A DNA stretch of 64,000 nt. It comes from Streptomyces sp. NL15-2K (GTDB lineage Bacteria; Actinomycetota; Actinomycetes; Streptomycetales; Streptomycetaceae). Within the stretch, counting starts at the first letter, position 1. Each line of letters begins with the position of its first letter. Positions 16,971-24,281 of the stretch are shown here, piece by piece. The notes under the pieces are model-generated. The model saw only the letters and a list, made by a program, of their open reading frames with translations, was not told the DNA's origin and did no database searches. The position numbers and the translations under genes are program-made. The stretch is taken from NCBI RefSeq assembly GCF_030551255.1, contig NZ_CP130630.1:10601001-10665000 (forward strand). Direction: 5' to 3'.

Positions 16971-17579
16971 CTATGTGATGGGAAAATCGAAGTAGGTGTC
17001 CGGATAAGGTTCGTTTTTGAGAGTGTAATGCCACCACTCGTAGTCGTATGCACTGAAACCGCACGTCTCCATGATGGATCGAAGGTACTGACGGTTCCTC
17101 GCTTCGGCTTGTGTGACCCCTTTTGCTCCATGATGTGAGACGGAATCCATGAGGTCGTGGTCACCGCCCATGGGAGCGAGCTCACGGGTGGCCAGGTCAT
17201 AGAGCGTGAGGTCAACGGTGCTGCCCCGGCTGTGGCCCGACTTGGCGGCCACATATCCCTTTTCGAACATCTCGGTTCTGTCGATATTCGGATAGTGCCG
17301 TGACTTCGTCCGGCCATCCTCTGGCTGTTTCGACCAGCGCAGAAAGCAGTCGACGGCGCGCTGCGGGCGATAACCATCCCAGAGAAGTAAGCCGAACCCA
17401 AGAGATTCGGCCTTCTCTCGCGCGCGTTCCAGGGCTGCGCATAAAGCCCTGGTTCCGACAACCCGATTTGCCATGTACCCGTCCACCGGTTTGCCGGTGA
17501 AGTTGTCCCATGTAGCGTACTTGGCATCCCAGCGTATTCCGGATGCAAGCTCGTCCACAAAGGAAAAGTCATCCTTCAT
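16971..17579 (-). CDS. vanX: D-Ala-D-Ala dipeptidase VanX
   Basis: 202 residues, normal for VanX. A zinc dipeptidase that hydrolyses D-Ala-D-Ala so that only D-Ala-D-Lac reaches peptidoglycan precursors. Seen: the metal ligands in SGHSRGSTVDLTLYD and EWWHYTL, and LLLWDGYRPQRAVDCF. The start overlaps the vanA stop (ATGA). Codon 64 is TTA (17388-17390), a codon decoded by the bldA tRNA in Streptomyces. G+C is visibly lower than in the surrounding genes, consistent with transfer. Last gene of vanHAX. Confidence 0.96.
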   Translation of the reverse strand: MKDDFSFVDELASGIRWDAKYATWDNFTGKPVDGYMANRVVGTRALCAALERAREKAESLGFGLLLWDGYRPQRAVDCFLRWSKQPEDGRTKSRHYPNIDRTEMFEKGYVAAKSGHSRGSTVDLTLYDLATRELAPMGGDHDLMDSVSHHGAKGVTQAEARNRQYLRSIMETCGFSAYDYEWWHYTLKNEPYPDTYFDFPIT

Positions 17580-18616
17580 CGGCTTTTTCCCGTCAACGCC
17601 AGCGACACCGTCCGGTCGATCACTTCGGCAAGCGGAAACCCCGCGGCCGCCATCATTCTCGGATAACGGCTGTACGAGGTCATGCCGGGCATAGTATTGA
17701 CCTCGTTGAGCACTACTTCTCCATCGTCCTTGAGGAACATGTCCACCCGCGACAGCCCCCTGCATCCCAAGGTGCGGTATATGGCCTTGGCTGTCCCCTG
17801 AACGAGCAGTCGCGACTCTTCCGGAATGTCGGCGGGAACGATTGCCGTTGAGTTTTCGGAGCCGGTCTCCGGCTCATCCTCCTGATGAATTCTGAAGAAT
17901 CCATGAGAGAGCGCGATTCGATCCACCTTGCCCGCGACCAAATCCAGATCGTTCCCCAGGATGGCGCATCCGATCTCGCTGCCGACGACAGCCTCTTCGA
18001 TCAACACCTTCGAGTCATACTGCCTTGCGGTTTCCACCGCACTCGGCAGTTCCTCTTCACGAGATACTTTGGTGACACCGAAGGATGACCCCGAACGCGC
18101 CGGCTTCACGAAGACGGGATAAGGGAGCCGATCGGGATCAATGTTCTCGTTCGCCGTGACGGTCCAGAAATTCGGCGTCGCGATTCCCGCGCTTCTGGCG
18201 ACGATGTAGGCAAGGGATTTGTCCATGCACAGAGCAGAACTTTGGACGTCGCAGCCGATGTAGGGGATGCCGGAGAGCTCCAGCAGACCCTGTATCGCGC
18301 CATCCTCGCCGAGTGAGCCGTGCAGAATCGGCAACACGACGTCCAGACGGAACGTTTCGTATCGTCCCTGCTCCTGGACAAGCAATCCGTGCACGCTGCT
18401 GTCCGGTGACAACACGGCCGGACGGCAGCTGCCGTTCTCCCAATCTGCGTCAGGCCCGTCGCAGAGCTTCCAGGCACCGCTCTTCGTGATCCCGATATAG
18501 AAGGGTTCATACTTCTCCATATCGAGGTTTCGTGCGACCTCTCGCGCAGACTTGACGGAGACGGGGTGCTCTTCGGAACGCCCCCCGAAGATGATTCCGA
18601 CCTTCAACCTATCCAT
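17576..18616 (-). CDS. vanA: D-alanine--D-lactate ligase VanA
   Basis: 346 residues. An ATP-grasp ligase making the depsipeptide D-Ala-D-Lac. Seen: IIFGGRSEEHPVS, VVLPILHGSLGEDGAIQGL, KPARSGSSFGV, the omega-loop motif HGFFRIHQEDEPETGSEN whose FRIHQE histidine is the residue associated with lactate preference in VanA-type enzymes, and RVDMFLKDDGEVVLNEVNTM. The start overlaps vanH by 8 bp and AGGAA precedes it. No TTA codon was found. It should confer high-level glycopeptide resistance with VanH and VanX. Confidence 0.96.
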   Translation of the reverse strand: MDRLKVGIIFGGRSEEHPVSVKSAREVARNLDMEKYEPFYIGITKSGAWKLCDGPDADWENGSCRPAVLSPDSSVHGLLVQEQGRYETFRLDVVLPILHGSLGEDGAIQGLLELSGIPYIGCDVQSSALCMDKSLAYIVARSAGIATPNFWTVTANENIDPDRLPYPVFVKPARSGSSFGVTKVSREEELPSAVETARQYDSKVLIEEAVVGSEIGCAILGNDLDLVAGKVDRIALSHGFFRIHQEDEPETGSENSTAIVPADIPEESRLLVQGTAKAIYRTLGCRGLSRVDMFLKDDGEVVLNEVNTMPGMTSYSRYPRMMAAAGFPLAEVIDRTVSLALTGKSR

Positions 18617-19586
18617 GCCGATTCCTGCTTTCGAATTTCAGACAGTTGATGAGGGAGTTTTCCACGGTGTCACTCAGAGCGTGGTCCGTGTAGTAGGCGG
18701 TGTGCGGACTGATGAGCACATTTGGCAGCTCGTGCAGCCGCAACAACGTTTTGCTTTCGATGGGTTTGTTTCGGCAGTCGGCGTAGAATATTCCTTCCTC
18801 TCCTTCGAGGACATCCAGCGCCGCACCGCCCAGCCTGCCGCTTTCCAATGCCGATACAAGCGCCTCGGTATCGATAAGCGCACCACGTCCAGTGTTGACA
18901 ATCAGCGCGCCGTGCTTCATCCGCTCCATCCGCTGCCGATTCAGCAGATGGCGCGTATCCGCGTTGAGCGGCGCATGGAGCGTGACCATGTCGCTCCGCT
19001 GCAGCAATTCATCGAGAGGAAGGTAATCGGCAGCGGTCTTGGGGCGATTGTCATGGGCCAGGATTCGGCAACCGAAACCCCGCAGCCTATCCATGACCGC
19101 TACGCCGATGCGGCCTGTTCCGATCACCCCGATGGTCAGATCGCGTAGCTCTCTCCCGCGCACTTCACTCAATCGGTAATCGTGTATTTCCGAGCGACGG
19201 ATGATGGATTTCGCCTCTCGCACCATCATCAACATCAGCATCAGCGTGTAGTCGGCCACGCTGTCCGGCGAGTAGGTGACGTTTTCAACTGAAATGCCGA
19301 CGCTGTCCGCGTATTCCACATCGACATGGTTGTATCCGATGCTCCGCGTAGAGATATACGTCACGCCGGCCTGACCAAGCGCGAGAAGAGTGGCGTTTGT
19401 GACGTGAGTCTTGTGGCCGACGCTGATGCATCGGCTTCCGGATGCCAGTTCAACATTGGCTTCGGATACCGGTGCGTCTGTGATGGTCGGCGTCACGCCG
19501 AAGCGAGGCGCCAGCTCTCGGAATAAAACGGCCTCATCCGGGCCGCACCCGTAGATGGTGATGCGGACCGGTTCGCTGTAGGTCAT
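18609..19586 (-). CDS. vanH: D-lactate dehydrogenase VanH
   Basis: 325 residues from the ATG at 19586; upstream in-frame codons lie inside the shared promoter module. Reduces pyruvate to D-lactate for VanA. Seen: the dinucleotide loop VIGTGRIGVAVMDRL, the catalytic arginine in NTGRGALIDTEAL, the acid in DVLEGEEG and the histidine in ISPHTAYYTD. Codon 21 is TTA (19524-19526), so translation may depend on bldA. Its first six codons (M-T-Y-S-E-P) reappear as the first codons of the vanK leader and, more weakly, of the murF leader. Confidence 0.95.
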   Translation of the reverse strand: MTYSEPVRITIYGCGPDEAVLFRELAPRFGVTPTITDAPVSEANVELASGSRCISVGHKTHVTNATLLALGQAGVTYISTRSIGYNHVDVEYADSVGISVENVTYSPDSVADYTLMLMLMMVREAKSIIRRSEIHDYRLSEVRGRELRDLTIGVIGTGRIGVAVMDRLRGFGCRILAHDNRPKTAADYLPLDELLQRSDMVTLHAPLNADTRHLLNRQRMERMKHGALIVNTGRGALIDTEALVSALESGRLGGAALDVLEGEEGIFYADCRNKPIESKTLLRLHELPNVLISPHTAYYTDHALSDTVENSLINCLKFESRNRHG

Positions 19587-19672
19587 GCCTACAGTCAAGG
19601 CGGCGTGATGTTGCCGGAACGTATGCGGTTTTCAATATGCCGGCGATACACCACGTTGCCTTGACTGGAGGC
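19587..19672. promoter_or_regulatory. Divergent vanH/murF promoter, probable VanR site (copy A)
   Basis: Exactly 86 bp separate the vanH ATG from the ATG of the murF leader. Counting from the vanH side, 52 of the first 62 bases match the vanK/vanR gap (22395-22480), also exactly 86 bp. The most conserved core is 19620-19648, with TATGC words at 19622-19626 and 19636-19640. Both ends carry the element GCCTTGACTG-N2-GGC directly before ATG, in inverted orientation. An OmpR-type regulator such as VanR would be expected to bind repeated half-sites of this kind; binding itself is inferred. Confidence 0.75.
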
Positions 19673-19765
19673 ATGCCTTTCAACGAAACAGCCTCCATCA
19701 GCTCCATCAGCCTGTGCCTTGTCAGCCTGCTCCCGCTCGGCGGCCTCCGCGCCGCGCGGTCATGA
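19673..19765 (+). CDS. 30-codon leader frame overlapping murF
   Basis: An ATG-initiated frame of 30 codons ends in a TGA that overlaps the murF ATG (ATGA). It begins M-P-F-N-E-T, echoing the vanH start M-T-Y-S-E-P, and is preceded by the same TTGACTG element. The middle is hydrophobic ([18 protein letters not shown]) and contains a 9-bp tandem repeat (CTCCATCAG, twice). Since murF lacks an obvious ribosome site of its own, this frame may deliver ribosomes to it by coupling. The peptide itself may have no function. Confidence 0.5.
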
Positions 19766-21105
19766 TCCCGCTCAGCCTCGGCGAGATCGCCGAGGTCGTC
19801 GGCGGGAAGGCCGAGGGCGACAGCTCCGTGACAGTGACCGCGCCGGCCGTGCTCGACGGCCGGCAGGCCGAGCCGGGCGGCCTCTTCGTCGCCTTCACCG
19901 GCGAGCACGTCGACGGCCATGACTACGCCGGCCAGGCCGGCCGGGCCGGCGCCGTGGCCGTGCTCGGCTCCCGGCCCACGCCGCTGCCCACCGTCGTCGT
20001 CGAGGACGCCCAGGCCGCGCTGCAGGCGCTCGCCGCCCACGTTGTGGCCCGGCTGCGCGACGGGCTGACCGTTGTCGGGCTGACCGGCTCCCAGGGCAAG
20101 ACCAGTACCAAGGACCTGCTGGCGGCCGTGCTTTCGAGCGCCGCGCCGACGATCGCCACGATCGGCTCGCTCAACAACGAACTCGGTGTGCCGCTCACCA
20201 TGCTGCGCGCCGACGCGGCCACCCGGTTCCTCGTCCTGGAGATGGGAGCCCGCCATGTCGGCGACATCGCCGAGCTCACCGGCCTGGTCGCGCCCGACAT
20301 CGCCGTCGTCCTCAATGTCGGCCAGGCCCACCTCGGCGAGTTCGGGTCGCGCGCGGCCATCGCCAGGGCCAAGGGCGAGCTGGTGCAGGGGCTGGCGCCA
20401 GGTGGCGCCGCCGTCCTCAACGCCGACGATCCCCGGGTGGTCGCGATGCGCTCGCTCACCGACGGTCCGGTGCTGACGTTCGGCCGGGCGGCCCACGCCG
20501 ATGTACGGGCGCTCGGCCTGGCCCTTGACCGGCTCGGCCGGCCGTCCTTCACGCTGCGGACCGCCGAGGCCTCGGTTCCCCTCACGCTGCCACTCGTGGG
20601 TGCCCACCAGGCGCTCAACGCGTCGGCTGCCGCGGCGGCGGGGCTGGCGGCCGACGTACCCCTCGACATGGCCACGGCGGCGCTGGCCACCGCTTCGCTG
20701 TCGAAGTGGCGGCTGGAGCTGCGCGATCTCGCCGGTGGCGCGACGCTGCTCAACGACTCCTACAACGCCAACCCCGACTCGACCCGCGCCGCCCTGGACG
20801 CGCTGGCGGCGATCGAGGGCGGGCGCCGCATCGCCGTCCTCGGCGAAATGCTGGAGCTCGGCGACGACAGCGAGGCTGAGCACCGCGCCGTCGGGGAGTA
20901 CGCCGCCTCCCGGGCCGACGTGGTGGCCGCTGTCGGCGAGGCCGCCCGGTCGATCGCCGACGGCGCGGGAGAGCGGGCGATGGTGCTGGCCGACAACGAC
21001 GCGGCCGTCGACTGGCTGCGCGGCCACATCGCCGCCGGCGATGTGGTGCTCGTCAAGGCCTCCCGCGGGGCGCGCCTCGACGAGGTCGCCGCCGCGCTCG
21101 CCTGA
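19762..21105 (+). CDS. murF: MurF-type UDP-MurNAc-tripeptide--dipeptide ligase
   Basis: 447 residues. Adds the terminal dipeptide to UDP-MurNAc-tripeptide. Seen: the N-terminal [14 protein letters not shown], the ATP loop [12 protein letters not shown] (about 107-118), [42 protein letters not shown] with the conserved histidine, and [19 protein letters not shown]. The ATG at 19762 matches the usual N-terminus. It lies between vanH and vanK instead of a cell-division cluster, so it is probably a second, resistance-linked MurF that could favour D-Ala-D-Lac. Comparable MurF genes near vanHAX are known in glycopeptide producers such as S. toyocaensis. G+C is high, unlike vanHAX. Confidence 0.92.
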
Positions 21106-21106
21106 G

Positions 21107-21196
21107 TCACTCGTACGCGGGCACCGGGCCGAGGCCGTAGCTGTCGCCATTGGCGACCGGCACCAGGCCGCCGACCAGCATGAGATCCGGCCTCAT
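21107..21196 (-). CDS. Small frame coupled to vanK stop
   Basis: A 29-codon frame starts with an ATG overlapping the vanK TGA (ATGA) and ends one base after the murF stop, exactly filling the convergent gap. The peptide ends GDSYGLGPVPAYE and has a hydrophobic start (LMLVGGLVPVA). The sequence does not look random, but I do not recognise it. It may be a tiny coupled gene or the remaining 3' end of a deleted leftward gene. Confidence 0.35.
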   Translation of the reverse strand: MRPDLMLVGGLVPVANGDSYGLGPVPAYE

Positions 21197-22305
21197 CGCC
21201 CGCGCCGCCTCATATAGAGATCGAAGGCCCGGTAGACCATCGGCCGCAGCGGCAGGTCCCACTCGCCGACGTGCCGCTTCGCCTGACCGCCGGTGCCGAC
21301 CTTGAACTGGATCAGCCCGACGTGCGGGTCGTCGGCGTCGAGGGTGGGGGTGATTCCGCGCAGGTCATAGACGTCGCAGCCGGCCGCCAGCGAGTCGCGG
21401 ATCATCGCCCACTGGCAGGCGTTGGAGCCGCGCACCTCGCGATTCTCGGTGGATGAGGCGCCGTAGGAGTACCACGCGTGGGCGCCCACGCGGACCAGGA
21501 TGGCGGCGGCGACCAGATCGCCCTGGTGGTGGGCCAGGTAGAGCTTGATCCGCTCGGGGTCCTCGGCGCTCAGCGCCGCGAACATGGTCTCGAAGTAGCG
21601 CAGCGGCCGGGGCGTGAAGCGGTCGCGCTCGGCGGTGTGGACGTAGAGGTCGTGAAACGCCTTCAGGTCTTCGCCCACCGTGACCTCGACTCCCTCCTTG
21701 GCCGCCTTCTTGATGTTGCGGCGCCATTGCTGGTTCATGCCCCTGAGCAGGTCGTCCTCAGTCCGGCCGGCCAGCGGAACCTCGTACCTGAACTGCGGAT
21801 GCCCGATCCCGAACCCGTCCTCCGGGCTCTGCGGCAGCCAGCCTGCTTCCCTGAGCCGGCTGGTCACGCGGGCGCCGACCGGGTCGGCCCACCGGCTCCG
21901 CAGCTCGGTGAGCCGCTGGATGTCCGGGGCGGCGATGCCCTCCTTGACCTGGTCGGCGCTCCAGGTGTTCGTGCACACCGGCGGGCTGAGCCGGATCGCG
22001 AACGCGCCGTGTGCCTTGAGATACGCCGTCAGCGGGTCGAGCCACGCGTCGATATCGCCGGTCCAGTCGATGACTGGGCCCTCGGGCAGATAGGCCAGCG
22101 TGAAGCGGTCGAGCCGCGGCACCGGGCGGTGCAGGACGAGCCCCGCACCGACCAGCAGCCGACCGTCGAACCAGCCGAGGGACTCGCTGCGCCACTCGGT
22201 CTTGACGCGGCCCCATGCCGGGGTCTGCAGGAAGCTGACCGACCGCAGTGTCCGCACGAACGCCAAGTGCTCGGCGGCGCTGATCGGCCCGACGGCCAGC
22301 CTCAC
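21193..22305 (-). CDS. vanK: FemX/FemAB-type peptidyltransferase VanK
   Basis: 370 residues. A FemAB-family non-ribosomal peptidyltransferase with a GNAT-like fold. In S. coelicolor, VanK adds the branch glycine to stem peptides ending in D-Ala-D-Lac and is required for growth once vanHAX is induced. Seen: FLQTPAWGRVKTEW, RSRWADPVGARVTSRLREAGW, GMNQQWRRNIKKAAKEGVEV, YSYGASSTENREVRGSNACQWAMI, and YDLRGITPTLD. The GTG start at 22305 overlaps the stop of an upstream 30-codon leader (GTGA). Transcribed from the VanR-type promoter B. Confidence 0.92.
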   Translation of the reverse strand: MRLAVGPISAAEHLAFVRTLRSVSFLQTPAWGRVKTEWRSESLGWFDGRLLVGAGLVLHRPVPRLDRFTLAYLPEGPVIDWTGDIDAWLDPLTAYLKAHGAFAIRLSPPVCTNTWSADQVKEGIAAPDIQRLTELRSRWADPVGARVTSRLREAGWLPQSPEDGFGIGHPQFRYEVPLAGRTEDDLLRGMNQQWRRNIKKAAKEGVEVTVGEDLKAFHDLYVHTAERDRFTPRPLRYFETMFAALSAEDPERIKLYLAHHQGDLVAAAILVRVGAHAWYSYGASSTENREVRGSNACQWAMIRDSLAAGCDVYDLRGITPTLDADDPHVGLIQFKVGTGGQAKRHVGEWDLPLRPMVYRAFDLYMRRRGR

Positions 22306-22394
22306 GCCCGCCCCCTGCCGGCCGAGGAGGACAAGGACACCGGAGACTGGGGCGGCGACTGGGCTGCTGTTCGTGCTGGTTCGCTGTAGGACAT
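22302..22394 (-). CDS. 30-codon leader frame overlapping vanK
   Basis: The frame starts at the ATG matching the vanH start in the duplicated promoter and runs 30 codons to a TGA overlapping the vanK GTG (GTGA). It begins M-S-Y-S-E-P-A-R, and 19 of its first 24 bases equal the first eight vanH codons (M-T-Y-S-E-P-V-R). The remainder is S/P/A-rich and not conserved with the murF leader. The length is identical to that leader (93 bp). It looks like a captured vanH start used for translational coupling; the peptide itself may be functionless. Confidence 0.55.
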   Translation of the reverse strand: MSYSEPARTAAQSPPQSPVSLSSSAGRGRA

Positions 22395-22480
22395 GCCATC
22401 AGTCAAGGCAGCGTGGTGTTGTCGGCGCGTATGTGGTTTTCGATATGCCGACGATATGCGCAGGCTCGTAGCCTCGGGGC
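22395..22480. promoter_or_regulatory. Divergent vanK/vanR promoter, probable VanR site (copy B)
   Basis: Exactly 86 bp between the vanK-leader ATG and the vanR ATG, 84% identical to copy A over the 62 bases from the vanK side. CGATATGC occurs twice at 11-bp spacing (22441-22448 and 22452-22459), with a further TATGT upstream, the direct-repeat layout expected for an OmpR-family dimer. The vanR-side 24 bases differ from copy A. It would let VanR control both vanK and its own operon. Confidence 0.75.
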
Positions 22481-23176
22481 ATGCGTGTGTTGATTGTCGA
22501 GGACGAACCGTATCTGGCAGAAGCCGTCCGCGATGGCCTGCGCCTGGAAGCGATCGCGGCGGACATCGCCGGTGACGGCGACACCGCTCTGGAACTGCTG
22601 AGCATCAACGCCTACGACATCGCCGTCCTCGACCGTGACATCCCCGGCCCGTCCGGTGACGAGATCGCCAAACGCATCGTCGCCTCCGGCAGCGGCATTC
22701 CCATCCTCATGCTCACCGCAGCCGACCGTCTCGACGACAAGGCGACCGGGTTCGGACTCGGTGCCGACGACTACGTCACGAAGCCGTTCGAGCTCCGGGA
22801 GCTCGTCCTGCGGCTCAGAGCGCTCGACCGCAGGCGTGCCCACACCAGGCCTCCCGTGCGAGAGATCGCAGGCCTGCGTCTGGATCCGTTCCGCCGCGAG
22901 GTCTACCGTGACGGCCGCTACGTCGCGCTCACCCGGAAGCAGTTCGCCGTGCTCGAAGTCCTCGTCGCTGCCGAAGGCGGTGTCGTCAGCGCCGAAGAAC
23001 TCCTGGAACGGGCGTGGGACGAGAACGCGGACCCGTTCACCAACGCCGTGCGCATCACCGTCTCCGCACTGCGCAAGCGTCTCGGCGAACCCTGGCTGAT
23101 CGCCACTGTGGCCGGCGTCGGCTACCGCATCGACACAGCACCCGGCACCGGACGTGAGGGACGAGACCATGGATAG
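22481..23176 (+). CDS. vanR: Response regulator VanR
   Basis: 231 residues, OmpR/PhoB class. The receiver domain (1-115) has the acidic pocket E7/D8, the phosphorylation site D51 in VLDRDIPG, T79 in MLTAAD and K101 in YVTKPFE. The C-terminal winged helix (about 125-222) has LTRKQFAVLEVL and TVAGVGYRID. In S. coelicolor VanR activates vanH, vanJ, vanK and vanRS when glycopeptide is sensed. It overlaps vanS. Expected target sites here are the two duplicated gaps. Confidence 0.95.
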   Translation: MRVLIVEDEPYLAEAVRDGLRLEAIAADIAGDGDTALELLSINAYDIAVLDRDIPGPSGDEIAKRIVASGSGIPILMLTAADRLDDKATGFGLGADDYVTKPFELRELVLRLRALDRRRAHTRPPVREIAGLRLDPFRREVYRDGRYVALTRKQFAVLEVLVAAEGGVVSAEELLERAWDENADPFTNAVRITVSALRKRLGEPWLIATVAGVGYRIDTAPGTGREGRDHG

Positions 23177-24281
23177 GCAGCCTGGTTTGAGCGTTCGCGT
23201 CAAACTCACCCTCAGCTACGCCGGCTTCCTCATGATTGCCGGCGTCCTGCTGCTCGCGGCGGTGTGGGTGTTCCTCCTGCGTTACGTCCCTAATCGTGCG
23301 ATGCTCATCAACCCCGATGACAGACCCACGAATGGTGTTTTCCCCATCCGGTCCGTCCTCCTGCAGGTTTTCGCTCCGAGAGCAGCCGCAGTACTGGCTT
23401 TCCTGCTGGTTTTCGGCCTCCTCGGAGGGTGGATCCTCGCCGGCCGGATGCTCGCCCCGCTGACCCGCATCACCGACGCCACACGCATGGCCACGAACGG
23501 ATCGCTCTCCCACCGGATCCGGCTACCGGGCCGCAAAGACGAGTTCCGCGAACTCGCCGACGCCTTCGACGCCATGCTCGCGCGGCTCGAAGCACACGTC
23601 GCCGAACAGCGGAGATTCGCAGCCAACGCCTCTCACGAGCTGCGCACGCCGCTGGCGATCTCGCAGGCACTTCTCGACGTGGCCATCAGCGATCCGAACT
23701 GCGACACCGGCGAAATCATCGACCGCCTCCACGCCGTCAACACCCGAGCCATCGACCTCACCGAGGCGCTGCTCCTGCTCAGCCGCGCCGACCAGCGGTC
23801 CTTCACACGAGAACATGTCGACCTGTCTCTCCTGGCGGAGGAAGCCACCGAAACACTCCTGCCCCTCGCGGAAAGGCATGCCGTCACCCTCGAGACCAAC
23901 GGCGACATCGCCCCCACGATCGGATCTCCGGCGCTCCTGCTGCAGCTGACCACGAACCTCGTACAGAACGCGATCGTCCACAACCTGCCGGAACACGGCA
24001 ACGTATCGGTCCACACCAGCGTCCGCCCCAAGACCGTGGTGCTCACTGTCGAAAACACCGGCGAGCAGCTCACCCCACAGCTGGTCTCGACCCTCACCGA
24101 ACCCTTCCAGCGCGGCACCGAGCGCATCCACACCGACCAGGCAGGCGTCGGTCTGGGCCTGGCCATCGTCAAAACCATCACCCAGGCACACGACGGAACC
24201 CTCACCCTCGCCCCGCGCTCTGCCGGCGGGATCCGCGTCACCGTCGAACTACCCGCGATATCGCCGCACGCCGACAGGTGA
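23169..24281 (+). CDS. vanS: Sensor histidine kinase VanS
   Basis: 370 residues from the ATG at 23169, which has GAGGGA upstream; a GTG at 23154 is possible. Transmembrane segments lie at about 18-38 and 70-92, enclosing a short extracytoplasmic loop of about 30 residues that would sense the drug. A HAMP segment follows, then the phospho-accepting H156 in NASHELRTPLA. ATPase boxes are QLTTNLVQNAIVHN, VENTG, PFQRG and GVGLGLAIVKTI. The start lies inside the vanR end, so the pair is co-translated. Confidence 0.93.
   Translation: MDRQPGLSVRVKLTLSYAGFLMIAGVLLLAAVWVFLLRYVPNRAMLINPDDRPTNGVFPIRSVLLQVFAPRAAAVLAFLLVFGLLGGWILAGRMLAPLTRITDATRMATNGSLSHRIRLPGRKDEFRELADAFDAMLARLEAHVAEQRRFAANASHELRTPLAISQALLDVAISDPNCDTGEIIDRLHAVNTRAIDLTEALLLLSRADQRSFTREHVDLSLLAEEATETLLPLAERHAVTLETNGDIAPTIGSPALLLQLTTNLVQNAIVHNLPEHGNVSVHTSVRPKTVVLTVENTGEQLTPQLVSTLTEPFQRGTERIHTDQAGVGLGLAIVKTITQAHDGTLTLAPRSAGGIRVTVELPAISPHADR

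Follow-up and report, generated by a model that had tools for sequence, protein, structure and literature searches.

A murF gene predicted to share a VanR-type promoter with vanH in a van resistance island of Streptomyces sp. NL15-2K

A seven-gene van island with its own murF

We analyzed a stretch of 64,000 nucleotides (nt) of the Streptomyces sp. NL15-2K genome (assembly GCF_030551255.1, contig NZ_CP130630.1, positions 10,601,001–10,665,000 of the forward strand; hereafter the window, with positions counted from its first letter), which holds a van resistance island that includes a murF gene. A previous reading of these letters without database searches (the sequence-only reading) had described a complete van module at 16971–24281 with murF between vanH and vanK, and family models identified all seven genes at that place. 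On the minus strand lie vanX (16971–17579; D-Ala-D-Ala dipeptidase, 202 aa; NCBIfam dipept_VanX, 406.3 bits against a cut-off of 320), whose start overlaps the vanA stop, vanA (17576–18616; D-Ala-D-Lac ligase, 346 aa; NCBIfam D_ala_D_lac_Sc, i.e., VanA-Sc, 673.7 vs 650), and vanH (18609–19586; D-lactate dehydrogenase; NCBIfam vanH_gen, 551.5 vs 540), which begins MTYSEP at the ATG of the promoter cassette described below (19586). With VanH, a D-Ala-D-Lac-type VanA and VanX all above their NCBIfam cut-offs, the gene set for D-Ala-D-Lac resistance is present. Next comes murF on the plus strand (19762–21105; 447 aa; Pfam Mur_ligase, Mur_ligase_M and Mur_ligase_C), with a TIGR01143 score of 413.8 (cut-off 288.6) that was obtained on an open reading frame (ORF) with 16 additional N-terminal codons. 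It is followed by vanK on the minus strand (21193–22305; FemAB-family protein, 370 aa; Pfam FemAB, 169 bits) and by vanR and vanS on the plus strand (22481–23176, response regulator, 231 aa, Pfam Response_reg and Trans_reg_C; 23154–24281, sensor kinase, 375 aa, Pfam HisKA, HAMP and HATPase_c). For these two, the Van-O models scored best and both stayed under the cut-off (vanR-O, 459.2 vs 505; HK_VanS_O, 510 vs 720), i.e., they are VanRS-like without passing a curated subfamily model.

The murF gene points away from vanHAX and toward vanK and is a member of neither operon. When neighbor order was scored by the closest van gene (out of the seven) up to 1.5 kb to either side of murF, a divergent vanH was found beside murF in 46 of 56 non-redundant relatives, and 33 of the 56 combined it with a convergent vanK on the other side, as in the window; since the same neighbors recur, the arrangement is not due to chance. 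The island is flanked on one side by a group of glucose-6-phosphate dehydrogenase, OpcA, transaldolase and 6-phosphogluconate dehydrogenase genes with an AraC regulator and on the other by a GH16 protein, so that its surroundings are neither a cell-wall cluster nor an antibiotic cluster, in line with the earlier description of this murF as lying outside any cell-wall cluster. G+C content is 56–59% in vanHAX, 75% in murF and 70% in vanK (window mean, 69.7%), and this contrast suggests different sources or histories for parts of the island.

Both regulators were found in 42 of 71 island loci, vanS alone in 9 and neither in 20 (some loci are duplicates and some are short). Where matched in related islands, VanR was 85–94% and VanS 64–79% identical, the exception being one 39% VanR-like match (L045/L181, a single locus). 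A vanS match without a vanR match of at least 75% was seen at L025, L033, L034, L041, L156, L158, L168, L177 and L178; the L033 match is a fragment, and at L025 the distance from promoter core to start is too short for a vanR ahead of vanS. At L033 (Streptomyces odonnellii), the open frame of the van-type murF continues to 772 aa and vanA went undetected between vanX and vanH, a possible rearrangement or assembly fault.

A VanR-type promoter core at a fixed distance from start codons

Two sites in the window match a 20-bp core, CATATCGAAAACCGCATACG when written toward the gene, with a single mismatch, and the other listed window sites have 6 or 7 mismatches. The first (19620–19639) is centered between the vanH ATG (19586) and the ATG (19673) of a short leader ORF ahead of murF, ~33 nt from each, and the second (22428–22447) is centered between the ATG (22394) of a leader ORF ahead of vanK and the vanR ATG (22481). 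The murF leader (19673–19765, plus strand) comprises 30 codons and a TGA that overlaps the murF ATG by 4 nt (ATGA, 19762–19765); the vanK leader (22302–22394, minus strand) likewise has 30 codons, and its stop overlaps the vanK GTG by 4 nt (GTGA).

Aligning 140 such sites delineated an extended cassette, in which TATCG repeats 11 bp apart and the core are followed by GCAACACC, a −10-like TTGACT and, 6 nt past this hexamer, an ATG inside GGAGGCATG. At vanH, which starts in frame at the cassette ATG in 61 of 63 loci, the window carries a TTGACT 6 nt before the ATG (19593–19598, minus strand), as kept in the cassette profile. On the murF side, a TTGACT (19661–19666, plus strand) lies within the 3′ half of the cassette, and vanR has a TAGCCT belonging to the vanR-type hexamer set, again 6 nt before its ATG (22469–22474, plus strand). 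Before the window murF, the 3′ half of the cassette reaches a score of 36.5, compared with a background maximum of 9.05 on the two strands of 881 kb; the profile was trained on sites that bear a core, other murF and vanK promoters among them, with the murF side of the window outside the training set.

We then compared the spacing across 59 non-redundant murF loci with sufficient upstream sequence (window included), which are interrelated and do not represent independent events. In 55 of them, an ATG or GTG lies 33–35 nt from a core with ≤6 mismatches. Among these 55, 43 have coupled leaders with the 4-nt overlap and 12 have own or in-frame starts, while 29 use a core facing the divergent gene (the window type, in which it is common to vanH) and 26 a core facing murF. 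The same spacing holds for vanH (62/63), vanK (43/53) and vanR (29/37). As a control, only 14 of 46,651 ATG or GTG codons in non-van loci have a core with ≤6 mismatches at 30–38 nt, and in 881 kb around 51 murF genes outside the van clade the core occurs only twice at ≤5 mismatches. Related islands mostly hold 2–4 copies of the core (range 0–6, with none in the Frankia locus L048), and murF-less Streptomyces islands with the gene content of the S. coelicolor van cluster (L163–L165 and L170) carry the same core.

Taken together, this places murF very probably in the VanR regulon, as the sequence-only reading had anticipated when it put the gene under a VanR-type promoter. Shine-Dalgarno-like 4-mers precede 7 of 49 murF starts and 757 of 6,600 random 13-mers, i.e., about the same rate, which fits a dependence on translational coupling. 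We infer that the cassette combines a promoter with a leaderless start codon, the two being used as a unit, and a leaderless start followed by leader coupling, as drawn here, appears fairly probable. In Streptomyces coelicolor, ~20% of transcripts are leaderless (PMC7947799; here and below, citations refer to the accessible parts of the papers).

A MurF lineage associated with van genes

Apart from the window copy, the NL15-2K genome (12.4 Mb) encodes a single full MurF (C1:3005894), which has a further Mur ligase as its neighbor (3007518); the two MurFs are 56% identical. To place them, we built a tree of 101 rows from related-locus and genome-set searches, using 57 of 58 van-type and 44 of 83 other distinct full-length MurFs (partial matches were excluded, one of two copies from the Actinoplanes locus L237 is absent, L001 is represented by the window, and the non-van rows were thinned to half, with five deliberately retained). 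All 57 van rows fall on one side of a branch of length 0.53 with a support of 100, from a quick method with Shimodaira–Hasegawa-like approximate likelihood ratio (SH-aLRT) values and no bootstrap, and the remaining rows are called housekeeping by exclusion (<70% identity). The van clade takes in Streptomyces, Catenulispora, Frankia, Jiangellaceae, Kribbella and an Actinoplanes glycopeptide-type cluster, and this mixing of orders points to transfer. The window MurF clusters with the MurF of that Actinoplanes cluster and away from housekeeping MurF, the outcome expected under the phylogenetic check proposed in the sequence-only reading; the other MurF of the genome groups with non-van Streptomyces rows. 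We thus regard the window copy as a member of a single lineage tied to van genes, and on the strength of the tree we reject a housekeeping copy that moved into the island.

Company of murF and vanA across genomes

We evaluated this association in 392 Streptomyces genomes, an even draw from a larger group in which only the top few candidates per genome were scored. A van-type MurF (E ≤ 1e-150, 78–100% identity) is encoded in 29 genomes and VanA (E ≤ 1e-100) in 35, including all 29 MurF carriers (Fisher p = 2.6e-38, kinship ignored). As these 29 copies were retrieved by similarity to the window MurF, their falling into one clade is circular and not usable as support. In a separate Streptomyces sample, the full-length matches among those listed were either ≥79% or ≤58% identical. 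Across 41 loci, pairwise MurF distances correlate with those of VanA at r = 0.78, the highest value among ten gene pairs.

The two genes lie within 2 kb of each other in 28 of the 29 carriers and 0.94 Mb apart in the last (G144), where the stray murF (L168) retains the full promoter cassette. Similarly, a Rugosimonospora murF (L029) retains the full cassette, although no van gene was found closer than 9 kb; vanA lies elsewhere in that genome. Beyond Streptomyces, van-type MurFs occur in 2 of 67 Actinoplanes genomes (G499 and G473), both adjoining vanHAX, and, at 75–88% identity, in Frankia, Catenulispora, Kribbella, Jiangella, Phytoactinopolyspora, Actinopolymorpha and Rugosimonospora. The G473 locus (L237) has two van-type murF and two vanH genes in one stretch of ~20 kb, with a full cassette before each murF. 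We also considered vanJ and murF as mutual alternatives, which is ruled out by the presence of both at L042/L159, L157, L050, L031/L161 and L166. A search with the VanJ of a murF-less island (L164) gave no tblastn match anywhere in the 64-kb window; a vanJ 74% identical to it lies at about C1:12.144 Mb of the same genome.

VanR-type sites outside the island

The NL15-2K genome has a third core with 1 mismatch at C1:12145783 and one with 2 mismatches at C1:9128463, and a reversed-pattern control gave 1 match at ≤3 mismatches. At the former (C1:12143957–12145800; L244:3958–5801), a cassette precedes an ORF for a VanY-like D,D-peptidase (Pfam VanY, 47.6 bits, cut-off 25; NCBIfam vanY_far, 57.2, below the cut-off of 250), followed by the vanJ (Pfam Exo_endo_phos), and a vanR/vanS copy diverges from it. 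This vanRS copy, back to back with the cassette, has no intact frame listed and appears decayed; a second locus such as this one may serve strains whose islands are without regulators.

In 16 other van-carrying genomes, the reversed-pattern control had no match at ≤2 mismatches. Among the off-island sites inspected there, L257 leads to vanJ and L250 to a short ORF and vanJ, while L273 and L253 each lead to genes resembling vanY and vanJ; a divergent vanR is present at all four sites. At L274 (G144:C1:4903442), ~2 kb from the unlinked van-type murF, a cassette and leader ORF are coupled to a GNAT gene (Pfam Acetyltransf_1) with the same core and spacing as murF, vanK and vanR. One further off-island core, L258 (G390:C1:655688), has no start codon at the usual distance.

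Proposed mechanism and alternative explanations

Overall, we consider it probable that the island confers inducible-type D-Ala-D-Lac resistance and that its additional MurF belongs to the VanR regulon as a dedicated component. Under this model, VanRS would sense the glycopeptide drug, and phosphorylated VanR would bind the 20-bp core and activate both directions, i.e., vanH and murF. The transcripts would be leaderless and begin at the cassette ATG, and ribosomes ending the 30-codon leader would reinitiate on murF, itself without a Shine-Dalgarno-like sequence. VanX would then deplete D-Ala-D-Ala while VanH and VanA make D-Lac and then D-Ala-D-Lac, which the window MurF might, less certainly, attach to UDP-MurNAc-tripeptide, better than or alongside the housekeeping enzyme, before VanK attaches the branch amino acid. 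The pathway roles of VanH, VanA, VanX and VanK follow the literature (PMC8698665, PMC4790382). One detail of the sequence-only reading needs correction: it had the route start from lactate, and VanH starts from pyruvate.

Whether the window MurF is also specialized for its substrate is a separate question, and a real preference for the depsipeptide D-Ala-D-Lac seems to us plausible, just short of probable. The protein has the three Mur ligase domains (PF01225, PF08245 and PF02875) with the invariant P-loop and C-terminal motif residues. The two clades have 118 conserved alignment columns in common, among them P-loop residues, H282, N286, R317 and N335-A336, and ten positions hold an identical residue in 57/57 van and 44/44 housekeeping rows (G109, K113, E160, H190, K204, H282, N286, R317, D332 and N335). 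Clade-specific columns occur near the motifs, e.g., 281, 284, 285, 323 and 380, with a cluster at 281–285 around H282 and N286, and such columns cannot by themselves reveal a substrate preference.

Several observations weigh against this interpretation as a whole or in part. We looked for a clade-specific active-site change in the alignment of van and housekeeping MurFs and saw none, and the origin and root of the van clade are unsure, its nearest non-van rows being long Nocardioidaceae branches. In the usual orientation, VanR boxes belonging to the murF side of the window promoter are absent (score −36), which means that the boxes of vanH have to serve murF as well. Four of the 59 murF loci depart from the spacing rule: two genes lie directly behind vanX on the same strand (L188 and L047; the murF of L186 is also behind vanX, yet has its own full cassette), L048 has no core, and L190 has cores at other spacing. 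Five of the 35 vanA-positive Streptomyces genomes are without a van-type MurF (G157, G175, G254, G285 and G316, the island contig of the last being only 4.2 kb), and a sixth, G050, has a MurF fragment at a contig end and no full copy. The vanRS pair is not always near the island, as the loci with vanS alone or neither gene illustrate. Finally, leaderless transcripts are under-represented among the glycopeptide-responsive genes of S. coelicolor (PMC7947799).

One alternative is dosage: a second MurF of unaltered preference would add capacity when the pool consists of D-Ala-D-Lac, possibly a poorer substrate for standard MurF. The unchanged catalytic columns, the vanA-positive genomes without a van-type MurF and the S. 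coelicolor cluster, which functions without murF (PMC4790382), all agree with it. Yet under dosage any local MurF would do, and no housekeeping-type MurF was found in the island loci read, where the lowest full-length match is 71% (L237) and the rest are at least 75% identical; a monophyletic clade common to several orders and the grouping of clade-specific residues around H282 and N286 also argue against it, and we hold dosage to be rather unlikely. A second alternative is specialization of another kind, for a different tripeptide acceptor or for tolerance of an inhibitor or of scarce substrate under stress, with which the location of sequence differences near and not inside the invariant motifs would be compatible. 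However, MurF accompanies VanA in every carrier genome and its distances track those of VanA best, as expected if its substrate is the VanA product, while many of these islands lack vanR and vanS, and this alternative appears improbable. That murF is carried along neutrally by a mobile island, as the mixing of orders in the tree and the existence of islands without murF could suggest, is very improbable given the purifying selection indicated by a ratio of non-synonymous to synonymous substitution rates of 0.23–0.38 in nine pairs with the window copy (a crude Nei–Gojobori, NG86, estimate), the 4-nt coupled leader of most murF loci and the cassette retained where murF is unlinked from vanHAX (L029 and L168).

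More tentatively, the wiring could be generalized. A portable VanR cassette with its own leaderless start may recruit genes (murF, vanK and GNAT) through a throw-away leader with a 4-nt overlap, one symmetric core may drive two genes, and MurF may be a dedicated D-Ala-D-Lac adder, so that the pathway from pyruvate to branched precursor would be duplicated under one switch. If true, actinomycete glycopeptide resistance would amount to a duplicated precursor pathway, i.e., more than VanHAX, and the stray murF copies with intact cassettes point to murF as a working component of the resistance program rather than a passenger. In practical terms, a 20-bp core 33–35 nt from the start codon offers a sharp search rule for every gene of the regulon, and the existence of a D-Ala-D-Lac-specific MurF becomes a directly testable question.

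Comparison with known systems

One close counterpart is the seven-gene cluster vanRSJKHAX of S. coelicolor (VanB-type), which switches precursors to D-Ala-D-Lac (PMC4790382). Since it does so without a murF, a dedicated MurF is not required in principle. The two systems share vanH-vanA-vanX, vanK and vanRS, and the window VanA passes the VanA-Sc model. They differ in that the S. coelicolor cluster includes vanJ and, in the available description (PMC4790382), no murF, as the sequence-only reading had noted, whereas the window island has murF between vanH and vanK, and vanJ lies elsewhere in the genome.

At one end of the teicoplanin cluster, murF2 is grouped with vanHAX and a pair of regulators (PMC4790382), and the window resembles it in having a MurF adjoining vanHAX and a sensor/regulator pair. 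The difference is that the window murF is not in a biosynthetic cluster, given its flanks of pentose-phosphate genes, AraC regulator and GH16. In other published work, tei4 and murX have been called non-orthologues of van genes (PMC7325946), and stable expression of the tei2-3-4 and tei7-6-5 operons has been reported (PMC9779433). In the Actinoplanes genome G499, the locus L234 reads murF-vanH-vanA-vanX-vanS-vanR near nonribosomal peptide synthetase (NRPS; condensation and AMP-binding), halogenase and cytochrome P450 (P450) proteins, and its MurF is 81% identical to the window MurF and falls inside the van clade. From the fit of its gene order to the teicoplanin cluster, G499 would be A. teichomyceticus. 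In NL15-2K itself, a halogenase at C1:11256005 (L279/L283–L285) is 60% identical to the one of this Actinoplanes cluster and lies beside one NRPS of ~3,000 aa. No P450 signature was present in the ~60 kb read around it, and this sole halogenase lead did not resemble a glycopeptide cluster, the rest of the genome not having been searched for one.

Genes for murF, murG or GNAT proteins have been described at van loci in Frankiales, Glycomycetales, Jiangellales, Propionibacteriales and Rubrobacterales/Solirubrobacterales (PMC8698665). The sequence-only reading had pointed to murF near vanHAX in glycopeptide producers; a restriction to producers does not hold, as several non-producing orders carry such genes (PMC8698665). 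These loci resemble the window in the co-localization of murF with van genes in non-producers, and differ in that the accessible text on Streptomycetales names vanK and no murF, and contains no promoter or leader analysis. The housekeeping MurF of NL15-2K (C1:3005894), in turn, belongs to the same family and has the same invariant residues, and is set apart from the window copy by its 56% identity, its clade and its Mur-ligase neighbor.

Because murF beside vanHAX has already been published, the module itself is not new. Within the open-licence literature, we found nothing on van MurF specificity, the leader ORF or a bidirectional VanR promoter; the S. coelicolor promoter work (Hong 2004, Hutchings 2006) lies outside that search, so part of this may be known. 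Relative to the systems above, the new part is how murF is wired, i.e., a common promoter with a built-in start codon and a coupled leader.

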